Positions 1,509 through 10,156 of a stretch of 32,659 nt of DNA are shown in pieces. Below the pieces are notes generated by a model that had not been told where the DNA came from, made no database searches, and saw nothing but the letters and a program-made list of their open reading frames with translations. Location of the stretch: NCBI GenBank assembly GCA_015488775.1, contig WFNF01000167.1, positions 1 through 32,659 of the forward strand. Reading direction: 5' to 3'. How positions within the stretch are numbered: the first letter of the stretch is position 1; every line of letters begins with the position of its first letter. Both the position numbers and the translations under genes were made by a program. The stretch is from Helicobacteraceae bacterium (GTDB taxonomy: Bacteria > Campylobacterota > Campylobacteria > Campylobacterales > Sulfurimonadaceae).

Positions 1509-1769
1509 ATGATAAAAGGTAAGAAAGTTAAACCTATCGAAGCTCCACCGTTTGATGGAACATTGACTACAGAGACTATAGGTCTATTTATCAAAGCACG
1601 AAGAACGCAACAAGGCTTAAGCACAAAAGATGCTGCTATGCTCTGTGGAGTATCTGCTAACACTCTCAATAGCATTGAAAATGGTATAGCAGGAATGAAA
1701 GTATCTTCAGTGTTGAAAATTATGACAGCCCTTGGTATAAAACTACAAATAGACCCTTGGAATAAATAA
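1509..1769 (+). CDS. hipB: HipB-like XRE-family antitoxin/repressor
   Basis: This 86-residue protein carries one helix-turn-helix of the Cro/cI (XRE) type at about residues 25-80: IGLFIKARRTQQGLS, then KDAAMLCGVSANTLNSIENG, then VLKIMTALGIKL. The N-terminal 20 residues form a short basic, proline-containing tail. In the HipBA family this protein binds the operon's operators and neutralises the HipA kinase. The stop codon shares one base with the hipA start (TAATG), so the two are translationally coupled. TAGGA lies about 8 bases before the ATG. The promoter repeats at 1438-1484, and possibly 1370-1406, are its likely targets. Confidence 0.85.
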   Translation: MIKGKKVKPIEAPPFDGTLTTETIGLFIKARRTQQGLSTKDAAMLCGVSANTLNSIENGIAGMKVSSVLKIMTALGIKLQIDPWNK

Positions 1770-3058
1770 TGAGTGATAATAGATTAAATATCACAATGTC
1801 AGGTAAAGATGTTGCATCTATATGGGTAGATAAAATAGAAGAAACTTACAAATTTGAATATACTAAAGAGTGGGTACAAAATGGCTTTGCAGTATCTCCA
1901 CATTTACAGTTAAATGAGACTTTAAAATCTGGAATAATTAGAAGGTTTTTAGAAAATCTTATTCCGGAGGGAAAGGGTCTTGAAGATATAACTCAGTTCG
2001 CTCACATCTCAAAAAATAATACTTTTGCCATTATAAAGGCTATTGGGTATGATACCTCAGGTGCTTTGATGTTTGGGGAACATACTAATCAATATGAAGA
2101 GATATTTAGATCTATTCCTGACGATGAATTGTCTAGCCGTATAACTAACATAGAAGAAAATAGTATTGTTATATGGGATAAGAAAGAGAGACTTAGTTTA
2201 GCAGGAGTTCAAGAGAAATTACCAATCATTATTAAAGATGGTCAAATTGGTTTAGGTGATGGGCTTCTCTCTTCTACTCATATAATGAAGTTTCAAACTA
2301 AAAAACATACCAATATTGTTGTGAATGAACTGTTTTGTATGAAGTTAGCAAAGAAGATTAACTTAAGTGTTGCAGAGGTAGAACTATATCGTTTTAAAGA
2401 ACACCCAGTTTTAATGGTAAAAAGATTTGATAGAGTTTATCAAGAGAATATGGTGGAACGATTACATGTAATAGATGCTTGCCAAATGTTAGACTTATCT
2501 TCTACGCACAAGTATGAGAGAAACTTTGGTTCTGGGCGAGATGTTAAAGATATAAGAGAGGGTGCTAGTTTTAGTAAACTTTTTGCAAGTGCTGATATAT
2601 GTGAAGTTCCAGCAAAGGCTAAACTAGAAATGCTTAACTGGAGTATTTTTAATCTTATTATCGGAAACTCTGATGCTCATGGAAAAAACTTCTCATTCTT
2701 TGTAGATAAAAGCGGTATAAGACCAACACCTTTTTATGACATGCTCTGTATTATTGCTCATGAGAATGTTGAACATGATCTTGCTATGGCTTATGGAGAT
2801 GAATTCAATCCTAATGAAGTTAATGCGTATCAAATGCGAGAGTTCGCAGAAGATATAGGTGTAAACTATAAACTTGTAGCTCAAACGATGAGCAAAGTCT
2901 CTAAGTCTATTATAAAAGCTTTAGAAGATGATTTTATGGATAAAAGTTTATTAAATGATGATGAAAAAGTTTTTATGAATAAATTAAAAGTGATAATAGT
3001 TAAAAGAGCTGAAGTGTTTCTAGATGTTTCTGTAAATATGAACAAAGTGACATACTAA
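1769..3058 (+). CDS. hipA: HipA-family serine/threonine kinase toxin
   Basis: At 429 residues this is close to the usual HipA length. The N-terminal subdomain is at about 5-110. The glycine-rich loop region SLAGVQEK at 143-150 contains the Ser position at which HipA proteins autophosphorylate. An ATP-binding Lys174 follows in HIMKF, the catalytic loop is GNSDAHGKN with Asp302, and the metal-binding Asp324 is in FYDM. All key kinase residues appear intact, so an active toxin is likely. Known relatives phosphorylate aminoacyl-tRNA synthetases such as GltX and cause growth arrest; this protein's target is unknown. It is followed after 25 bases by a tRNA-Leu gene on the other strand, and probably belongs to a small island. 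Confidence 0.9.
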   Translation: MSDNRLNITMSGKDVASIWVDKIEETYKFEYTKEWVQNGFAVSPHLQLNETLKSGIIRRFLENLIPEGKGLEDITQFAHISKNNTFAIIKAIGYDTSGALMFGEHTNQYEEIFRSIPDDELSSRITNIEENSIVIWDKKERLSLAGVQEKLPIIIKDGQIGLGDGLLSSTHIMKFQTKKHTNIVVNELFCMKLAKKINLSVAEVELYRFKEHPVLMVKRFDRVYQENMVERLHVIDACQMLDLSSTHKYERNFGSGRDVKDIREGASFSKLFASADICEVPAKAKLEMLNWSIFNLIIGNSDAHGKNFSFFVDKSGIRPTPFYDMLCIIAHENVEHDLAMAYGDEFNPNEVNAYQMREFAEDIGVNYKLVAQTMSKVSKSIIKALEDDFMDKSLLNDDEKVFMNKLKVIIVKRAEVFLDVSVNMNKVTY

Positions 3059-3083
3059 CTAATCACAAAACATTATTTTAAAA

Positions 3084-3167
3084 TGGTACCAGTGGCCGGA
3101 CTCGAACCGGCACGCCGTAAGGCAGTCGATTTTGAGTCGACCAAGTCTACCATTCCATCACACTGGC
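3084..3167 (-). tRNA. tRNA-Leu(CAA)
   Basis: This is a complete 84-base type II tRNA with CCA encoded. The acceptor GCCAGTG pairs with CACTGGT, the anticodon stem GTCGA/TCGAC surrounds CT-CAA-AA, the variable arm is long, and the T-arm contains GGTTCGAGTCC. The anticodon CAA reads UUG codons. Its 3' end borders the hipBA island. Confidence 0.95.
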
Positions 3168-3469: not shown

Positions 3470-5353
3470 ATGTTTCAATTAGATACTCTTTCTCTTGTTT
3501 TTGTTGTACTTATTTTATTAGGAGTGGTGCCAAATCTTTTCTACTCAAGTGGTTATCTTTCACATATAAAACGAAAAGTACATTATCAATTACATTATTA
3601 CTCTTTTATTATATCTATGCTTGGTGTAGTTGTTAGTGCAAATGCTTTGATTTTTCTTTTCTTTTGGGAGCTAATGAGTCTAACTTCTTGGCAGTTGATT
3701 TTAACAGAAGTTAAGAAAAAAAGTACAGTTAAGGCTGCACAATTTTATTTTATTATGACACATTTCGGTTTTGTATTTTTACTTCTTTTTTTCCTTATTG
3801 TAACTGATGGCGATTTAAGTATAGGATTTGTTGCAATGAAGGAAACGGCAGTAGGATTTGCATATCCTACACTACTGTTTTTCTCTTTAGTACTAGGTTT
3901 TTTAAGTAAGGCTGGAGCTGTGCCACTACATGTATGGCTTCCTTATGCTCATCCAGAAGCACCTAGCCCAGTATCTGCCCTTATGAGTGGAATAATGCTT
4001 AAAATGGCTATTTATGGATTGTTTCGTTTTCTTTTTGATGTTCTGTATCCGTGGCCTTTAGAGTGGGGAATTATGATTTTAAGTATTGGGGCACTCTCTT
4101 CACTTGTTGGTGTATTATATGCTTTGAGTGAACATGATATAAAAGCACTGTTAGCAAACCACTCTATAGAGAATATTGGTATTATACTTATAGGTTTTGG
4201 TATGGGAATGATTTTTGATACTTTAAAGCTTGATACTTTAAGTACATTCTCTTTTATTGCAGCACTATTCCATACCTTTAATCATATGAGTTTTAAATCA
4301 CTTCTTTTCATGAGTGCAGGAGCAATTCTTCATCAAACACATACAAAAAATATGGAAAAGTATGGAGGTTTAATTAAAAAGATGCCTATAAGTGCTTTTA
4401 CATTTTTGATTGCTGCTATTTCCATATCAGCACTTCCTCCAAGTAATGGATTTTTAAGTGAATGGATGATTTTTCAATCAATGCTTAGTTCATCACATAT
4501 AGATATTATGGCACTTAAATTGGCTATGCCTTTTGCTATTTTTGCTCTTGCTATGACAGGAGGATTAGCTATTGCTTGTTTTGTAAAAGCGTATGGAATT
4601 ACTTTTTTAGGTTTACATAGAAGTGCAAATGCTAAACATGCACAAGAAGTTAATTTACTTATGAAAATTGGGATGATTATGATGATGTTAGTAATATTTT
4701 CTTTAATGCTTTTTACTCCTTTTTATATTCAATGGTTTGATAAAGCTTTTTTAGAACTTGGGCATACATCAGTTTATCAACAGATATTTCCAAATGGGTT
4801 TTGGCATATGCACTCAATTGGAATAAATGGTGGCATAGTATCGCCACTTATTTTATTTTTCTCTCTTGTTGGTATAACACTCTTGATGCTTATAGCATAT
4901 AAGTTATTTGGAGTAAAAACAAGAATTTGTCATACTTGGGCATGTGGTTACAATACAGTGGCAAAAACTCAATACTCTGCAACAGGATTTGCTGGACCTA
5001 TTCGTAGATTTTTTAGCTGGCTTTATAAACCGAATATTCATTTCACAAAACAGACCATCGCTGGACATGAAACAAAATTTATAACTTCAGAGTATGAAGT
5101 TCATGTGAAACCACTTTTTGAGAGAGTTCTTTATGACTCTTTTGCAAAATTTATTCAAAATGTAAGTTATTGGGTTTATCGTTTAGCTCATTTTGAGCAG
5201 ACTCGTTACGCTGCTATGATATTTAATATTATGTTAGTTGTACTTTTTAGTTACAGAATATTTTCCCATGAGTTCTCATGGGCTACATTTGTCTTGGAAT
5301 TTTTTGTTATGATAATTTCTGTGAAAATATTAATTATTGGAGATAAAAAATGA
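3470..5353 (+). CDS. hyfB: HyfB/HycC-like proton-pumping membrane subunit
   Basis: This 627-residue polytopic protein is of the NuoL/M/N antiporter-like family. Residues of the proton path are visible: Glu67 in FFWELMS, Lys147 in LSKAGAVPLHVWLP, Lys225 in DIKALLANHS and Lys276 in MSFKSLLFMSAG. The C-terminal extension carries the TWACGYN and TGFAGPIRR blocks typical of HyfB/HycC rather than NuoL. E. coli HyfB is somewhat longer at the N-terminus, but no upstream start exists because a stop codon lies in frame near 3404. It is the first gene of the six-gene operon and overlaps hyfC by 4 bases. In group 4 hydrogenases and relatives this subunit couples electron transfer to ion movement. Confidence 0.9.
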   Translation: MFQLDTLSLVFVVLILLGVVPNLFYSSGYLSHIKRKVHYQLHYYSFIISMLGVVVSANALIFLFFWELMSLTSWQLILTEVKKKSTVKAAQFYFIMTHFGFVFLLLFFLIVTDGDLSIGFVAMKETAVGFAYPTLLFFSLVLGFLSKAGAVPLHVWLPYAHPEAPSPVSALMSGIMLKMAIYGLFRFLFDVLYPWPLEWGIMILSIGALSSLVGVLYALSEHDIKALLANHSIENIGIILIGFGMGMIFDTLKLDTLSTFSFIAALFHTFNHMSFKSLLFMSAGAILHQTHTKNMEKYGGLIKKMPISAFTFLIAAISISALPPSNGFLSEWMIFQSMLSSSHIDIMALKLAMPFAIFALAMTGGLAIACFVKAYGITFLGLHRSANAKHAQEVNLLMKIGMIMMMLVIFSLMLFTPFYIQWFDKAFLELGHTSVYQQIFPNGFWHMHSIGINGGIVSPLILFFSLVGITLLMLIAYKLFGVKTRICHTWACGYNTVAKTQYSATGFAGPIRRFFSWLYKPNIHFTKQTIAGHETKFITSEYEVHVKPLFERVLYDSFAKFIQNVSYWVYRLAHFEQTRYAAMIFNIMLVVLFSYRIFSHEFSWATFVLEFFVMIISVKILIIGDKK

Positions 5354-6270
5354 TTACCTATCTATTGAGTATCCTTCTTTTAGTTATAGTAGCACCACTT
5401 TTGCTTTCCTATATAAAAGCTATTAAAATGATAATGTTATATAAAAGACCTATTTCTATATTACAAGGATATAGAAATTTCGCAAAACTTATACAAAAAG
5501 AGACAATTATTTCAAAAGAGAGTAGTGCAATTACACTTTATGCACCTTTTTTAATACTTTCACCTCTTTTAGTTGTTATGTTTTTTTTACCACCACTTGT
5601 AAAAGGAAGTTATTATGTAAGTTTTGTCGATGCCTTCACCATAACTGGTCTTATCTCTCTTTCAACTTTTTTTCTTATGCTCTTAGGTCTTGATAGTGCA
5701 AGTTCTTTTGGTGGTATAGGAAGTTCAAGAGAAGCCTTTATATCTGCTTTGGTTGAACCTGCAATGGTATTAACTATTTTTTCAGTGTCATTGATGGCGG
5801 GTAATTTGGGTGTAGGACAAGCTGGAGTCAATTTAGCACAAAACTTTCCAAAAGAACATATGGCTAGTTTTTTATTTGCAGGGATTAGCTTTTTTATTTT
5901 ACTTTTAGCAGAAAATGGGCGTATTCCTATTGATAATCCTGAAACTCATTTAGAACTGACCATGGTTCATGAAGCGATGATACTCGACTTAACAGGAGTT
6001 TATCTTGCGATTATTGAAACGGCATCTTCTATTAAGTTTGTTATTTTTACATCACTTTTTGCATCTTTATTTATCCCTTTTGGACTTGAGTTTAGTGCAC
6101 CAATTGCAATGTTAATCTTTTTTATTAAACTCTTTTTTATTGCAACTATTGTTGCATTTTTAGAAGTAAATACAGCGAAACTGCGTCTCTTTAAAATTCC
6201 AAATTTACTTGGGATTGCCATTGTTTTTGCTTTTTTATCTTTGATCACATTTTATGTTTTAGGAGCTTAA
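5350..6270 (+). CDS. hyfC: HyfC/HycD-like membrane subunit (NuoH family)
   Basis: This 306-residue protein has about eight membrane segments and is homologous in character to NuoH and HycD, which anchor the peripheral arm to the membrane and form the entry of the proton path. Characteristic cytoplasmic-loop motifs are present: GGIGSSREAF at 121-130 and ENGRIPIDNPETH at 188-200, followed by MVHEAM with Glu208. The start overlaps the end of hyfB (ATGA). Nothing looks truncated. The charged loop residues that contact the large subunit in complex I are retained, so assembly with the downstream hyfG and hyfI products is likely although the active site of the large subunit is lost. Confidence 0.92.
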   Translation: MITYLLSILLLVIVAPLLLSYIKAIKMIMLYKRPISILQGYRNFAKLIQKETIISKESSAITLYAPFLILSPLLVVMFFLPPLVKGSYYVSFVDAFTITGLISLSTFFLMLLGLDSASSFGGIGSSREAFISALVEPAMVLTIFSVSLMAGNLGVGQAGVNLAQNFPKEHMASFLFAGISFFILLLAENGRIPIDNPETHLELTMVHEAMILDLTGVYLAIIETASSIKFVIFTSLFASLFIPFGLEFSAPIAMLIFFIKLFFIATIVAFLEVNTAKLRLFKIPNLLGIAIVFAFLSLITFYVLGA

Positions 6271-6271
6271 A

Positions 6272-6865
6272 TTGGTAGATTTTTATATTGGACTTTTTTT
6301 GGCTTCTTTGATTATTGCTCTTTTTACAACAAGACTTTATGGATTACTTTTATGGTATGCAATTAACTCTTTTATGTTAGGAATATTAGCACTAACTATC
6401 GGAGAAAGTATAGATGATCGTGCTATGATAATTACGGGAATAATAACAATTATGATTAAAGCTTTTGGTATTCCATACACATTAAAAAATCTTTCTCAAA
6501 AATTTAAATTTGTTCGTAGTATTACGCCTAAGATACAAGTACAATATGCGATTATGCTTGTACCAGCTATCTTAGTTTTTACATTTTACCTATCAGAACC
6601 AATAGTAATGATGATACATACAAATGCAAATTATGTTGCTATTAGTATCTCATCTTTATTTCTATCTCTTTTACTTATGATGGAACATAGAAATGTTGCC
6701 CCAAAGATTATAGGATTTTTAAGTATGGAAAATTCACTTTTTTTATTAGGTATTACTGCAACAAATGGAATGCCTATGTTAGTAGAACTTGGAATATTTT
6801 TTGATTTATTAATAGCTATTGTTGTTATAAATCTTTTATTTAATAAAGAGGAACTGAAAATATGA
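6272..6865 (+). CDS. hyfE: HyfE-like membrane subunit
   Basis: This 197-residue protein has six or so hydrophobic segments and matches the small HyfE subunit; its N-terminal half resembles NuoK. The start is TTG at 6272, one base after the hyfC stop, with AGGAG at 6261-6265 inside the end of hyfC giving good spacing. A conserved-looking block ITIMIKAFGIPYTLKN contains the Lys typical of HyfE. The end overlaps hyfF by 4 bases. Together with the NuoN-like hyfF, it extends the membrane arm beyond the HycCD core of formate hydrogenlyase-1, making this complex Hyf-like rather than Hyc-like. Confidence 0.88.
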   Translation: MVDFYIGLFLASLIIALFTTRLYGLLLWYAINSFMLGILALTIGESIDDRAMIITGIITIMIKAFGIPYTLKNLSQKFKFVRSITPKIQVQYAIMLVPAILVFTFYLSEPIVMMIHTNANYVAISISSLFLSLLLMMEHRNVAPKIIGFLSMENSLFLLGITATNGMPMLVELGIFFDLLIAIVVINLLFNKEELKI

Positions 6866-8277
6866 TTTTAATTTTTTTATTACTTCCTTCCTTGATAATG
6901 TTTTTTATAAGTTTTTCTAAAAGTGATAAATCAAAATATTTATTAACTTTAACATTATTTGTTGTTCTACTGCCTATTGTAAAACTTTTTTTATTACAAA
7001 AACCGTATGCTGTTTTAGGAAATTATCTTGTTGTTGATAAGCTTGACACTTATGTACTTCTTGTCTCTTCTATAGTAGGGATAGGTGTGACTTTAGCACT
7101 TTTAACATTAGATAAACATGTAAAAGTGTCTCCAAAAGCATATAGAAAATTTTATAGATTTTTTGCTATTTTTTGGATAGGATTGATTTTATCAATATTA
7201 GCAAATAATATGGGGATTTACTGGATAGGTTTAGAACTTGCTACTCTATCTACAGTTTATATGATAAAAACAAACTATACACCTGCTGCACATAAAGAAG
7301 CATGGAATTACATGATAGTTGGAGCTATTGCAGTTTCACTTATACTTTTTGGGATTATTTTAATGTATGCAAGTGCAAAACCTATATTAGGTGAAGACGC
7401 TATGTCTTTTGACTTGCTTTTAAAACATGCTAAAGAGATTCCATCACCTTATCTTTTTGAAATTGGTTTTGCTATTACAACGATTGGAATGTTTGTAAAA
7501 ATGGGGTTTTTCCCTATGAATTTGTGGTTGGCAAATATTGAAAGAGCATCATTTTATCCTGTTGCTGCACTTTTTAGTGGTATTTTAGAATCAGCTGTAC
7601 TTATTGGTTTTTTTAGATTTTCTAAAATTGCTATGGAAGTTAACCATGATCATCTTTTTATTTTTATATTTGTTTATACTCTTTTGACCATATTTATTGT
7701 ATCTTTTCTTATTTTTAGGGCTAAAGATTTTATACGTCTTTTTTCTCTCTCAGGAATTGAACATATGGCACTCATATCAATGTTTTGGGTTAGTGGAGCA
7801 CCTTTTGCAGCTTTACTTCATTTTGGTGCACATGCTTTTTTAAAGCCAGCACTATTTCTTTCTGCTGGTGTACTTGAATCAAATGGGAAGTATAAAATTG
7901 CTGGAGCACTTAAGGGATACAAAGGAAGAGGTGGAACACTTTTTGTAGTTTTAATATCTCTTTTTTTACTATCTATTATCTCTTTGCCACCAAGTCCAAT
8001 GTTTTTTAGTGAACTTTATGGATTTGGCGCAATGATAACTACAGCAAAACATGGAAATCATATTTTAGCTATGATCGGGGCGATTTTATTTTTACTTATC
8101 TTGCTTTCGATTATTTTTTATCGTTTTATTGCTATATATCAATCTATGAAATATGAGGGAGAAATAAAAGAAAGAAAAGTTTATAATATTGAACTTTTTG
8201 TATTGATTTTATTTACTTTTTCCCTTATGATACTTATGCTTCCTACAACAATAGCATATTTAAAATCAATAGTATAG
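6862..8277 (+). CDS. hyfF: HyfF-like proton-pumping membrane subunit
   Basis: This 471-residue protein is a second antiporter-like subunit. Family residues include Glu125 in WIGLELATLS, Lys213 in MFVKMGFFPMNLWL, Lys288 in FRAKDFIRLFSLSGIEH and Lys328 in AHAFLKPALFLSAG. Retention of these lysines and the glutamate argues for selection on ion translocation. It overlaps hyfE by 4 bases and is followed 8 bases later by the large-subunit gene. With hyfB, the operon encodes two antiporter-like units; E. coli Hyf has three (B, D, F), so HyfD is missing here. Confidence 0.9.
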   Translation: MILIFLLLPSLIMFFISFSKSDKSKYLLTLTLFVVLLPIVKLFLLQKPYAVLGNYLVVDKLDTYVLLVSSIVGIGVTLALLTLDKHVKVSPKAYRKFYRFFAIFWIGLILSILANNMGIYWIGLELATLSTVYMIKTNYTPAAHKEAWNYMIVGAIAVSLILFGIILMYASAKPILGEDAMSFDLLLKHAKEIPSPYLFEIGFAITTIGMFVKMGFFPMNLWLANIERASFYPVAALFSGILESAVLIGFFRFSKIAMEVNHDHLFIFIFVYTLLTIFIVSFLIFRAKDFIRLFSLSGIEHMALISMFWVSGAPFAALLHFGAHAFLKPALFLSAGVLESNGKYKIAGALKGYKGRGGTLFVVLISLFLLSIISLPPSPMFFSELYGFGAMITTAKHGNHILAMIGAILFLLILLSIIFYRFIAIYQSMKYEGEIKERKVYNIELFVLILFTFSLMILMLPTTIAYLKSIV

Positions 8278-8285
8278 GAACAAAA

Positions 8286-9653
8286 ATGAGATTAATAGCA
8301 CGCTATGCAAAAGAGCTAAAAAATGATTTTGAAGTGATTACTATCTATGATAAAATTATTCAAAGAGAAAAAGTACCTAAAGATACTCCTTCTATGCAAA
8401 CTTTAGCAAAGATTCATCCATGTGCAGTTTGGTTTGAGCGAAAGATATATGATGATTTTGGTATAAATTTTAGTGATGCATATGATAAACGCCCTTTAGT
8501 ACATCAGGAAAGATTCGCAAAAAATATTCATCCAATGCAAAAATCATTTACTAACAAGAGTATTCAAGAGGTGGATTACCTTCCTTATAAGTACGAAGAA
8601 ATTAGTGGAGATGGAGTTTTCCAAGTTGCTGTTGGACCTATTCATGCAGGAATTATTGAACCAGGACATTTTCAATTTTCTCAAGCAGGAGAAGAGATGT
8701 TGCACCTTGAAGTAAGACATTTTTATAAGCACCGTGGGATTGAAAAGATGTTAGAGGGTAAATCCTTGTTTGATGTAAAAGCAATAATTGAACGAATTAG
8801 TGGGATTGAATCTATTGCATACCAAATATGTTTACGAGACATTATGTTACAAGCTTCAAAACAAGAATTGCCAAAAACTTTAAAAAAAAGACATGCACTC
8901 TTTTTAGAACTTGAACGAACAATTCATCATCTAAACAACTTAGGATTTATTCCAAATGATGCTGGTTTTGGTGCAGCAATGAGTTTTGCTTCTAAACTTT
9001 CTGAAGATGCCAGACGAAAATTAAAAGAGATTAGTGGACATAGATTTGGTTTTGGTGCTGTAGATTTTTCTATAGAATCTATAGATAAAACCTCTTTTTT
9101 GGAGTGGCTTGATACACTTCAAAAAGATATAGATTTTTTCGAGGATTGGATTATGGATATTCCTTCACTATGGGATAGATTTGATACAACAGGGAAACTT
9201 ACTTTAAAAAAAGCAATAAAATATGACACTATTGGTGTAGTAGCTCGTGCTTCTGGAGTCTCAGTAGATAGAAGAATAGATAAATTTTATCTTGAACATG
9301 GTTTTGAAATTGCAAACGAGAAAAGTGGTGATGTTGCTGCTAGATTTAAAATTCGGCTTCATGAAGTAAAAAATTCTATTTTAATGATGCGTAATTTTTT
9401 AGATGAGAATAGTGATGATTTTACACTAAACATTTTCCACGATGGAGAGTTTTTTAGTTTTTGTGAAAGTTCTATTGGAGAGTTGCTAGTTACTATTGAG
9501 TTAAAAGATGGTGTAATTGAACGTTTCTTTGTTAGAGACCCTAGTTTTATTAATTGGCAAGCACTACATTTGATGATGCGAAGTGATATAATCGCTGATT
9601 TTCCACTAATAAATAAAAGTTGTGATTTAAGTTATGCAGGGAGTGATTTATGA
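8286..9653 (+). CDS. hyfG: HyfG/HycE-like large subunit lacking Ni ligands (Ehr type)
   Basis: This 455-residue protein is a NuoC-NuoD type fusion. Residues 1-80 are a shortened NuoC-like part (VWFERKIYDDFGI). Residues 100-455 are the NiFe-large-subunit/NuoD part, with AVGPIHAGIIEPGHF and HRGIEKMLEG well kept. The two CxxC motifs that hold nickel and iron in every [NiFe] hydrogenase are gone. The first, normally ERICGIC, reads ERISGIE (169-175); the second, normally DPCxxC, reads DPSFIN (418-423). The protein therefore cannot bind a NiFe centre. The fold is otherwise intact and the gene undamaged, as in described energy-converting hydrogenase-related (Ehr) complexes and in NuoD itself. AGGAA precedes the ATG. 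It overlaps hyfI by 4 bases. Confidence 0.93.
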   Translation: MRLIARYAKELKNDFEVITIYDKIIQREKVPKDTPSMQTLAKIHPCAVWFERKIYDDFGINFSDAYDKRPLVHQERFAKNIHPMQKSFTNKSIQEVDYLPYKYEEISGDGVFQVAVGPIHAGIIEPGHFQFSQAGEEMLHLEVRHFYKHRGIEKMLEGKSLFDVKAIIERISGIESIAYQICLRDIMLQASKQELPKTLKKRHALFLELERTIHHLNNLGFIPNDAGFGAAMSFASKLSEDARRKLKEISGHRFGFGAVDFSIESIDKTSFLEWLDTLQKDIDFFEDWIMDIPSLWDRFDTTGKLTLKKAIKYDTIGVVARASGVSVDRRIDKFYLEHGFEIANEKSGDVAARFKIRLHEVKNSILMMRNFLDENSDDFTLNIFHDGEFFSFCESSIGELLVTIELKDGVIERFFVRDPSFINWQALHLMMRSDIIADFPLINKSCDLSYAGSDL

Positions 9654-10156
9654 TTAGGTTCTGGAGTAGAAGACTTTATGAAAGCAATATTACAGAAGAT
9701 ACAGATTTAGAAAAAAGATTATATGTAATTAAAAAAAATATAAAAGATAAAGTAAAAAAAAAGTTTGCAGGTAGTTTAGCAATTAGAATGGTTGATAGTG
9801 GAAGTTGTAATGCTTGTGAAGCTGAATGTAATGCTCTTTCAAATTCATACTATGATTTGGAACGCTTAGGTGTCTATTTTGTGGCAAGTCCTCGTCATGC
9901 TGATGTTATGCTTTTGAGTGGAGTTATGACTTTTAATATGACACCTTATGTAAAGAATGCTTATGAACAAATACCAGCACCAAAATGGGTGGTTAGCCTT
10001 GGCGATTGTCCTGTGATGCAAGCTCCATTTGAGTTAACACATGCAATTAACGCTCCAGTTGATAAGTATTTTGAAGTAACACATCATATTGCAGGTTGTC
10101 CACCAACACCTTTAGAAATAATGGAAGGCTTATTAGAATTTTTACAAAAAATCTAA
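9650..10156 (+). CDS. hyfI: HyfI-like small subunit with one FeS cluster (NuoB family)
   Basis: At 168 residues this is a short cytoplasmic small subunit like HycG and NuoB. Four cluster cysteines are present: Cys53 and Cys56 in GSCNAC, Cys120 in LGDCP and Cys150 in AGCPP. The proximal [4Fe-4S] cluster (equivalent to N2 of complex I) should therefore form. The CxxC spacing is hydrogenase-like rather than the adjacent Cys pair of NuoB. It is the last gene of the operon. No gene for the ferredoxin-like subunits HyfA or HyfH follows, so the electron source for this cluster is not encoded here. The first 40 residues are basic and may bind the membrane arm. Confidence 0.9.
   Translation: MIRFWSRRLYESNITEDTDLEKRLYVIKKNIKDKVKKKFAGSLAIRMVDSGSCNACEAECNALSNSYYDLERLGVYFVASPRHADVMLLSGVMTFNMTPYVKNAYEQIPAPKWVVSLGDCPVMQAPFELTHAINAPVDKYFEVTHHIAGCPPTPLEIMEGLLEFLQKI

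Follow-up and report, generated by a model that had tools for sequence, protein, structure and literature searches.

The six genes that run along the + strand of the window (the whole stretch of DNA analysed here, contig C167, 32,659 b with 30% GC) at 3470-10156, with the make-up BCEFGI (HyfB/C/E/F/G/I-like), very probably encode a Campylobacterota-type Ehr complex and not a hydrogenase. This reading of the sequence follows from the missing NiFe ligands, processing peptide and HypD/PF00374, together with the alignment, the tree of the large subunit and constraint at the codon level, and it sustains the original prediction of a maintained complex that cannot be a hydrogenase. Ehr (energy-converting hydrogenase-related) complexes form a family that is found widely, is little understood and stands between the hydrogenases and respiratory complex I; its reaction is a long-open question in complex I evolution. 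The window belongs to a Campylobacterota-like genome (G000) of 2.70 Mb in 170 contigs that is 95% complete.

The start and stop codons of neighbouring genes in the operon overlap or almost touch, and the run is flanked by a HipBA-like pair with a tRNA-Leu gene on one side and by flgL on the other. Gene calls and profile matches returned six genes only, with no HyfA/HyfH-type Fe-S subunits among them, and EhrC matched NF008556 (hydrogenase 4 membrane subunit) with an E of 5.9e-14, under the cut-off. The HipBA-like toxin-antitoxin pair lies at 1509-3167, by the tRNA-Leu(CAA) gene and directly upstream of the operon, and this region is a possible insertion site. The features of the operon are collected in the table.

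Features of the ehr operon and of its large subunit EhrL (positions in the window)
Feature	Position	Strand	Basis
EhrA / HyfB-like antiporter subunit, 627 aa	3470..5353	+	PF00361; alignment; conservation
EhrB / HyfC-NuoH-like membrane anchor, 306 aa	5350..6270	+	PF00146; alignment; conservation
EhrC / HyfE-like membrane subunit, 197 aa	6272..6865	+	NF008556; ortholog-like length
EhrD / HyfF-like antiporter subunit, 471 aa	6862..8277	+	PF00361; alignment; conservation
EhrL, fused NuoC+NuoD/HycE-like large subunit, 455 aa, without NiFe ligands	8286..9653	+	alignments; AF2 model
EhrS, NuoB/HyfI-like small subunit, 168 aa	9650..10156	+	PF01058; alignments; conservation
beta1-beta2 loop of EhrL, GPIHAGIIEPGH, with Glu125	8634..8669	+	alignment; roles from PMC9474812, PMC7684303
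ERISGIE, EhrL 169-175, first Cys-pair site (Ser172, Glu175)	8790..8810	+	alignment
EhrL His214, at the HycE canopy Ser283 position	8925..8927	+	alignment
EhrL Ile397, at the HycE R478 (canopy Arg/Lys) position	9474..9476	+	alignment
DPSFIN, EhrL 418-423, conserved RxPSFxN motif, not a Cys pair	9537..9554	+	alignment
D447-L-S449-Y-A-G452, actual second Cys-pair site of EhrL	9624..9641	+	alignment

To place the ligands, we aligned EhrL with E. coli HycE and HyfG, three NuoD proteins from its own genome and more than 50 orthologs. EhrL aligned with HycE (7z0s_E) at an E of 4.9e-37 and more weakly with NuoD. HycE DRVCGIC fell on ERISGIE, so that Cys241 and Cys244 correspond to Ser172 and Glu175, just as had been proposed for the first pair. 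The second pair had originally been sought in DPSFIN, as a changed DPCxxC with Ser420 and Asn423, and here the alignment disagrees: HycE DPC531YSC534 aligned to D447-L-S449-Y-A-G452, which places the lost ligands at Ser449 and Gly452. DPSFIN itself aligned to HycE RAATYANW and NuoD RAPSFWH and is ruled out as the second Cys pair; to our knowledge, the RxPSFxN-type motif that it shares with NuoD never holds a metal. With the second pair moved to 449/452, the claim that all four Ni-binding cysteines are lost stands, and by alignment all four NiFe-ligand Cys are absent from EhrL. Among 71 Campylobacterota-type orthologs, Ser172, Ser449 and Gly452 are each present in 71/71 and Glu175 in 66/71, and substitutions fixed in this way argue that the ligand loss is not due to chance. 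The four cysteines that EhrL does possess, at 46, 182, 393 and 446, lie off the ligand positions and vary among the orthologs (1/71, 23/71, 12/71 and 64/71, respectively), so they cannot form a replacement set; nearby cysteines acting as NiFe ligands, which would have overturned the prediction, are ruled out. Only 3 residues follow Gly452, leaving a C-terminal extension of 0 aa, compared to 32-35 aa in HycE and the Campylobacterota Hyf proteins of the alignment.

The gene had been described as intact with five undamaged partners, and this proved correct. EhrL is an uninterrupted, full-length ORF of 455 codons, and the partner genes have the lengths of their orthologs and keep the conserved charged residues. 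Mismatches between EhrL and its nearest named ortholog amount to 0.453 at third compared to 0.123 at second codon positions (ratio 3.7), with the partner genes similarly or more biased, a codon pattern indicating that the six full-length ehr genes are under purifying selection. Within the membrane arm, EhrA keeps TM5 Glu67, TM7 Lys147, TM8 Lys178 and TM12 Lys373 (alignment and conservation), while EhrD keeps its own Glu125 and Lys213 and has Glu243 at the TM8 Lys position, which is occupied by Lys in NuoM and by Asn in E. coli HyfF. EhrB carries the E-channel-like residues E188, R191, D195, E198, E202 and E208, and the antiporter arm looks competent. An AlphaFold2 model of the EhrL monomer had a mean pLDDT of 85, with a pLDDT below 50 in loop 106-129, and its best PDB match was HycE (7z0s_E, TM 0.82), followed by complex I NuoCD.

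The window genome gave no match to HypD (PF01924) or to the [NiFe] large subunit profile PF00374, at 95% completeness, and its PF00346-type proteins are EhrL and three complex I NuoD/NuoCD proteins only. HypD was also absent in 9/12 and 4/20 Ehr-bearing Campylobacterota genomes of two sets (each genome at least 90% complete with at most 5% contamination). G1366, a complete single-contig genome, has an intact ehr large subunit and is without HypD. Such genomes argue that the Ehr complex is independent of hydrogenase maturation. Three Ehr-bearing genomes that are 92-99% complete (G000, G016 and G029) have neither a PF00374 hydrogenase nor HypD, and three other Campylobacterota genomes (G1369, G1217 and G1458) encode, beside a window-type protein, a second match that lies in the range of four-Cys Hyf proteins by score, not by alignment.

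Profile and protein searches covered 228 genomes of the family, 1,278 genomes at the phylum level and 62 organism-named loci. Window-type proteins (50-74% identity) are spread across Campylobacterota, and more distant relatives of EhrL occur in Pseudomonadota, Verrucomicrobiota/Lentisphaerota and Melainabacteria; the phyla were deduced from those seed loci that have names. The title of one window-type locus (L090/G232) reads Piscirickettsiaceae, which could reflect transfer or misbinning. IQ-TREE was run without the Cys columns on 51 sequences, a set that did not include the named Geobacter and Nitrospira Ehr; all Cys-less sequences formed one clade (support 96/93), with a four-Cys Melainabacteria clade as sister, then HycE/HyfG and then NuoD; FastTree recovered the same order for 145 sequences. 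This large-subunit tree had been suggested as a check, and it places EhrL inside the Cys-less clade, which, with the alignment, supports the proposed membership in Ehr. By these data, the Cys-less clade is Ehr, a known family that spans at least four phyla. Since the Cys-less sequences fall in one clade across four phyla, the tree indicates that Cys loss was a single ancient event at the base of Ehr, not a peculiarity of the window gene, and the clade has persisted in genomes without hydrogenase maturation.

Melainabacteria and Lentisphaerae lineages are reported to bear Ehr, which has also been reported from genomes lacking a full quinone pathway (PMC6349859), and Nitrospira Ehr likewise lacks the CxxC motifs (PMC10284858). 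The window shares its kinds of subunits, and a large subunit without NiFe ligands, with the Ehr relatives of Geobacter sulfurreducens (GSU0739-45), Riflemargulisbacteria, Melainabacteria, Lentisphaerae and comammox Nitrospira (PMC7894505, PMC6349859, PMC10284858), and EhrL forms one clade with the Lentisphaeria and Melainabacteria Ehr sequences. The hyfBCEFGI of Acidithiobacillus ferrooxidans, whose catalytic subunit is a non-hydrogenase by HydDB (PMC7735108), has the same six-gene make-up as the window, a likeness by description, not by sequence.

Like E. coli Hyf/Hyc (group 4a [NiFe]), the window complex has the fold, the CxxC proximal cluster, the Glu proton donor and HyfB/C/E/F-like membrane subunits, but it lacks the four Cys, the 32-aa C-terminal extension, the HyfA/HyfH iron-sulfur subunits and HyfD. 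With complex I it shares a NuoC-NuoD-like fusion, NuoB-like and NuoH-like subunits and the antiporters, but not NuoE/F/G/I, His38/Tyr87 or the tandem CC cluster motif. The window genome also has apparently three further complex I-type enzymes, on contigs C86, C38 and C130/C123 (L006-L008); by eye, one has NuoE/F/G-like genes, another lies next to an FAD-dependent oxidoreductase-like gene and the third next to a large GltD-like protein.

Automatic annotation had been expected to name the large subunit hydrogenase-4, which held in part. NCBIfam did not do so: the best match of EhrL was NuoD, at 113.8 against a cut-off of 360 bits, and the nearest model for EhrA was 'hydrogenase 4 subunit B', at 560 against a cut-off of 667. 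Scores under the cut-offs suggest that curated models would leave EhrL unnamed or NuoD-like. On the other hand, a RAST-based paper called group 4 proteins of Sulfurimonas, probably these very proteins, 'Hyc hydrogenase' and reported group IV 'Hyc' hydrogenases in S. autotrophica OK10 and S. paralvinellae GO25 (PMC7952632). Two complete genomes, G086 and G101, encode window-type large subunits with 67% and 73% identity, respectively, and if they correspond to OK10 and GO25, the 'Hyc' of these strains is probably Ehr. In that case, published assignments of H2 metabolism would be corrected and a culturable test system would be gained. G101 has a true [NiFe] hydrogenase with HypD on its second contig, which the table of that paper may have missed (PMC7952632).

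We assessed the pocket by alignment, taking the roles of residues from the FHL and MBS/MBH structures (PMC9474812, PMC7684303). EhrL Glu125 (HycE E193, MbhL E21), whose equivalents are the proposed proton donors of FHL and MBH (PMC9474812, PMC7684303), is present in 71/71 Campylobacterota-type proteins and in all other Ehr, and is absent from the three complex I proteins of the same genome. Ile124 stands at the position of HycE D192 and complex I His38, and Gly173 (69/71 Campylobacterota-type) at that of complex I Tyr87. The HycE canopy residues S283, R478 and D529 are replaced by His214 (69/71), Ile/Leu/Met397 (71/71) and Asp447 (71/71). In other Ehr, residue 214 is mostly Asn (Ile in one Melainabacteria group), residue 397 is mostly the canopy Arg, at a site where hydrogenases keep Arg/Lys and the Campylobacterota proteins have a hydrophobic residue, and residue 447 is almost always Asn. 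At position 174, the other Ehr all carry Asp (63/63); the Campylobacterota-type proteins carry Asn in 67/71 cases, and the window carries Ile. Asp occupies position 218 throughout the other Ehr and in 70/71 of the Campylobacterota-type proteins, the window having Asn instead. These two window-only changes, N174I (8805-8807) and D218N (8937-8939), both lead toward the HycE residue and may be biological or assembly-related. In the tree, the Campylobacterota-type pocket changes fall on a long stem branch. As the alignment has it, the Campylobacterota branch has a pocket of its own, with Glu175, His214 and Asp447 and no canopy Arg/Lys, which is new here.

EhrS has one [4Fe-4S] site (C53, C56, C120 and C150) with hydrogenase-type CxxC spacing, CNAC standing in place of the tandem Cys-Cys N2 motif, and its ligands are conserved in 51/51 orthologs. 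It has no fused ferredoxin domain, in contrast to the EhrS of Lentisphaeria-type Ehr. Judged by these residues, the Campylobacterota branch combines a distinct pocket with a reduced electron path.

The sister Melainabacteria complexes (L096, L097, L112-L116 and L203-L206) display a pattern that mirrors the window Ehr. Their large subunits keep the four pocket Cys with no C-terminal extension (L096, L097, L112-L116), whereas their small subunits have three or all four of the [4Fe-4S] ligands replaced (CxxC by CxxE or SxxE, GDC by GDG, GCPP by GDPP/GNPP). HypD is absent in 6/6 genomes with these complexes, and 5/6 of the loci are linked to a gene of the SatP family, as are 5/6 to one of the ArsR type. 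From these features, the sister complexes are unlikely to be hydrogenases, and their four Cys may hold another metal.

The window Ehr complex is probably a redox-driven ion pump. Its predicted parts include a one-cluster, hydrogenase-like electron relay, a hydrogenase-like proton donor, E-channel-like residues and the Glu/Lys residues of the ion path, all kept, and the Ehr literature has suspected, never shown, redox-coupled charge translocation (PMC6349859, PMC10284858). We propose that ferredoxin or flavodoxin, acting as a soluble carrier of low potential, would give electrons to the EhrS cluster, which would hand them on to a small substrate, in its oxidised form, within the emptied and re-lined pocket (Ser172, Glu175, His214, Asp447 and Ser449). 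The substrate would be protonated via EhrL Glu125, and the movement of the loop and E-channel that follows would make the membrane arm transport ions, in the manner of group 4 hydrogenases and complex I. The machine could also reverse, with an ion gradient supplying low-potential electrons for autotrophy. On balance, a Campylobacterota-type Ehr acting as a redox-driven ion pump coupled to a pocket substrate is the explanation of the whole that we favour. The identity of the acceptor is more doubtful: for a Campylobacterota host that respires, we would tentatively name menaquinone first, and the main objection is that, with Ile124 and Gly173 in place of His38 and Tyr87, a quinone would have to bind differently. 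UbiA (PF01040) is found in 22/24 genomes, so the presence of quinone genes does not discriminate the acceptor. Electron entry is conjecture, because a comparison of neighbourhoods found neither a ferredoxin-like subunit nor a recurrent gene for an electron donor near the Campylobacterota ehr operons; genes for Fe-ADH, SatP and ethanolamine permease occur near particular Ehr relatives only. Moreover, the cluster ligands are missing from the sister Melainabacteria complex, so that redox work may be confined to part of the superfamily.

A rival reading is a non-redox chemiosmotic machine, in which the EhrL pocket would bind or convert some small compound, such as CO2/bicarbonate or an organic acid, the membrane arm would move ions and the cluster would be structural. 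We consider this unlikely. It would account for the lack of electron-input clusters and donor genes, for pocket residues that are charged and fixed, and for a sister clade in which the complete operon persists without cluster ligands and HypD, in most cases accompanied by a gene for a SatP-like transporter; however, cluster ligands as strictly conserved as those of EhrS in the Campylobacterota branch (51/51), and the fusion of EhrS to a ferredoxin domain in some Ehr, point to electron flow. A similarly small chance attaches to the idea that the Campylobacterota pocket (Ser172/Glu175/His214/Asp447/Ser449, no canopy Arg) serves a new metal-free substrate, with chemistry unlike that of hydrogenases, complex I and MBS. 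If so, then together with the Melainabacteria sister complex, it would show that the superfamily includes machines which couple non-H2, non-quinone and possibly non-redox chemistry to ion transport. A sulfane-sulfur or polysulfide reductase like Pyrococcus MBS seems more improbable still; here the lost NiFe centre would have left behind a hydrophobic chamber, and reduction of polysulfide there by the proximal cluster would be coupled to the pumping of ions. Many EhrL orthologs belong to records whose titles name Sulfurimonas, Sulfurovum or similar genera, which are known sulfur chemolithotrophs, but Ehr also occurs in Lentisphaeria and Melainabacteria, for which we know of no sulfur link. MBS of Pyrococcus furiosus is, like the window complex, a group 4 relative without a NiFe centre or quinone residues: two of its four NiFe cysteines are gone, and so are His38/Tyr87 (PMC7684303). 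On the other hand, it retains the other two Ni cysteines, lacks the MBH-type proton-donor Glu that Ehr has (Glu125 in the window) and has an Mrp-type membrane arm, a subunit set not found in the window. MBS further relies on an under-ligated proximal cluster from a shortened Cys loop (PMC7684303); such a three-Cys cluster is ruled out for EhrS, which keeps the four-ligand, hydrogenase-type CxxC loop.

Two further readings are far less probable. Drift of a hydrogenase-4 operon toward pseudogenes could explain N174I and D218N, at positions conserved in Ehr, but it is very hard to reconcile with six full-length genes whose differences are strongly third-position biased and with the same substitutions fixed across 71 orthologs. 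A real hydrogenase taking its NiFe ligands from other residues or nearby cysteines is scarcely credible: the Hyf-like fold and operon and the retained Glu125 would suit it, but no alternative Cys set is conserved, HypD is absent here and in several other Ehr genomes, and EhrL has no processing extension.

Compared to other Ehr, the Campylobacterota operons often contain additional genes, for a DUF167 protein or for another HyfB. The extra HyfB gene, full or partial, is found in at least eight Sulfurimonas-type loci, in tandem at the operon start (L040, L042, L044-L047, L049 and L063), and also in L216, a locus of the Pseudomonadota group; the window lacks it, with no second copy in its genome and no remnant upstream of the operon. 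A DUF167-family (YggU) gene, also lacking in the window, lies between the HyfF-like and large-subunit genes in 10 Sulfurimonas-type loci (L044:9621-10004 and nine similar ones). Finally, L207 (G1458:C27) carries two different ehr operons in tandem: in the window-type operon, the genes for the large and small subunits are set apart, and the space between them holds the second operon and a gene for an ethanolamine permease (TIGR00908).
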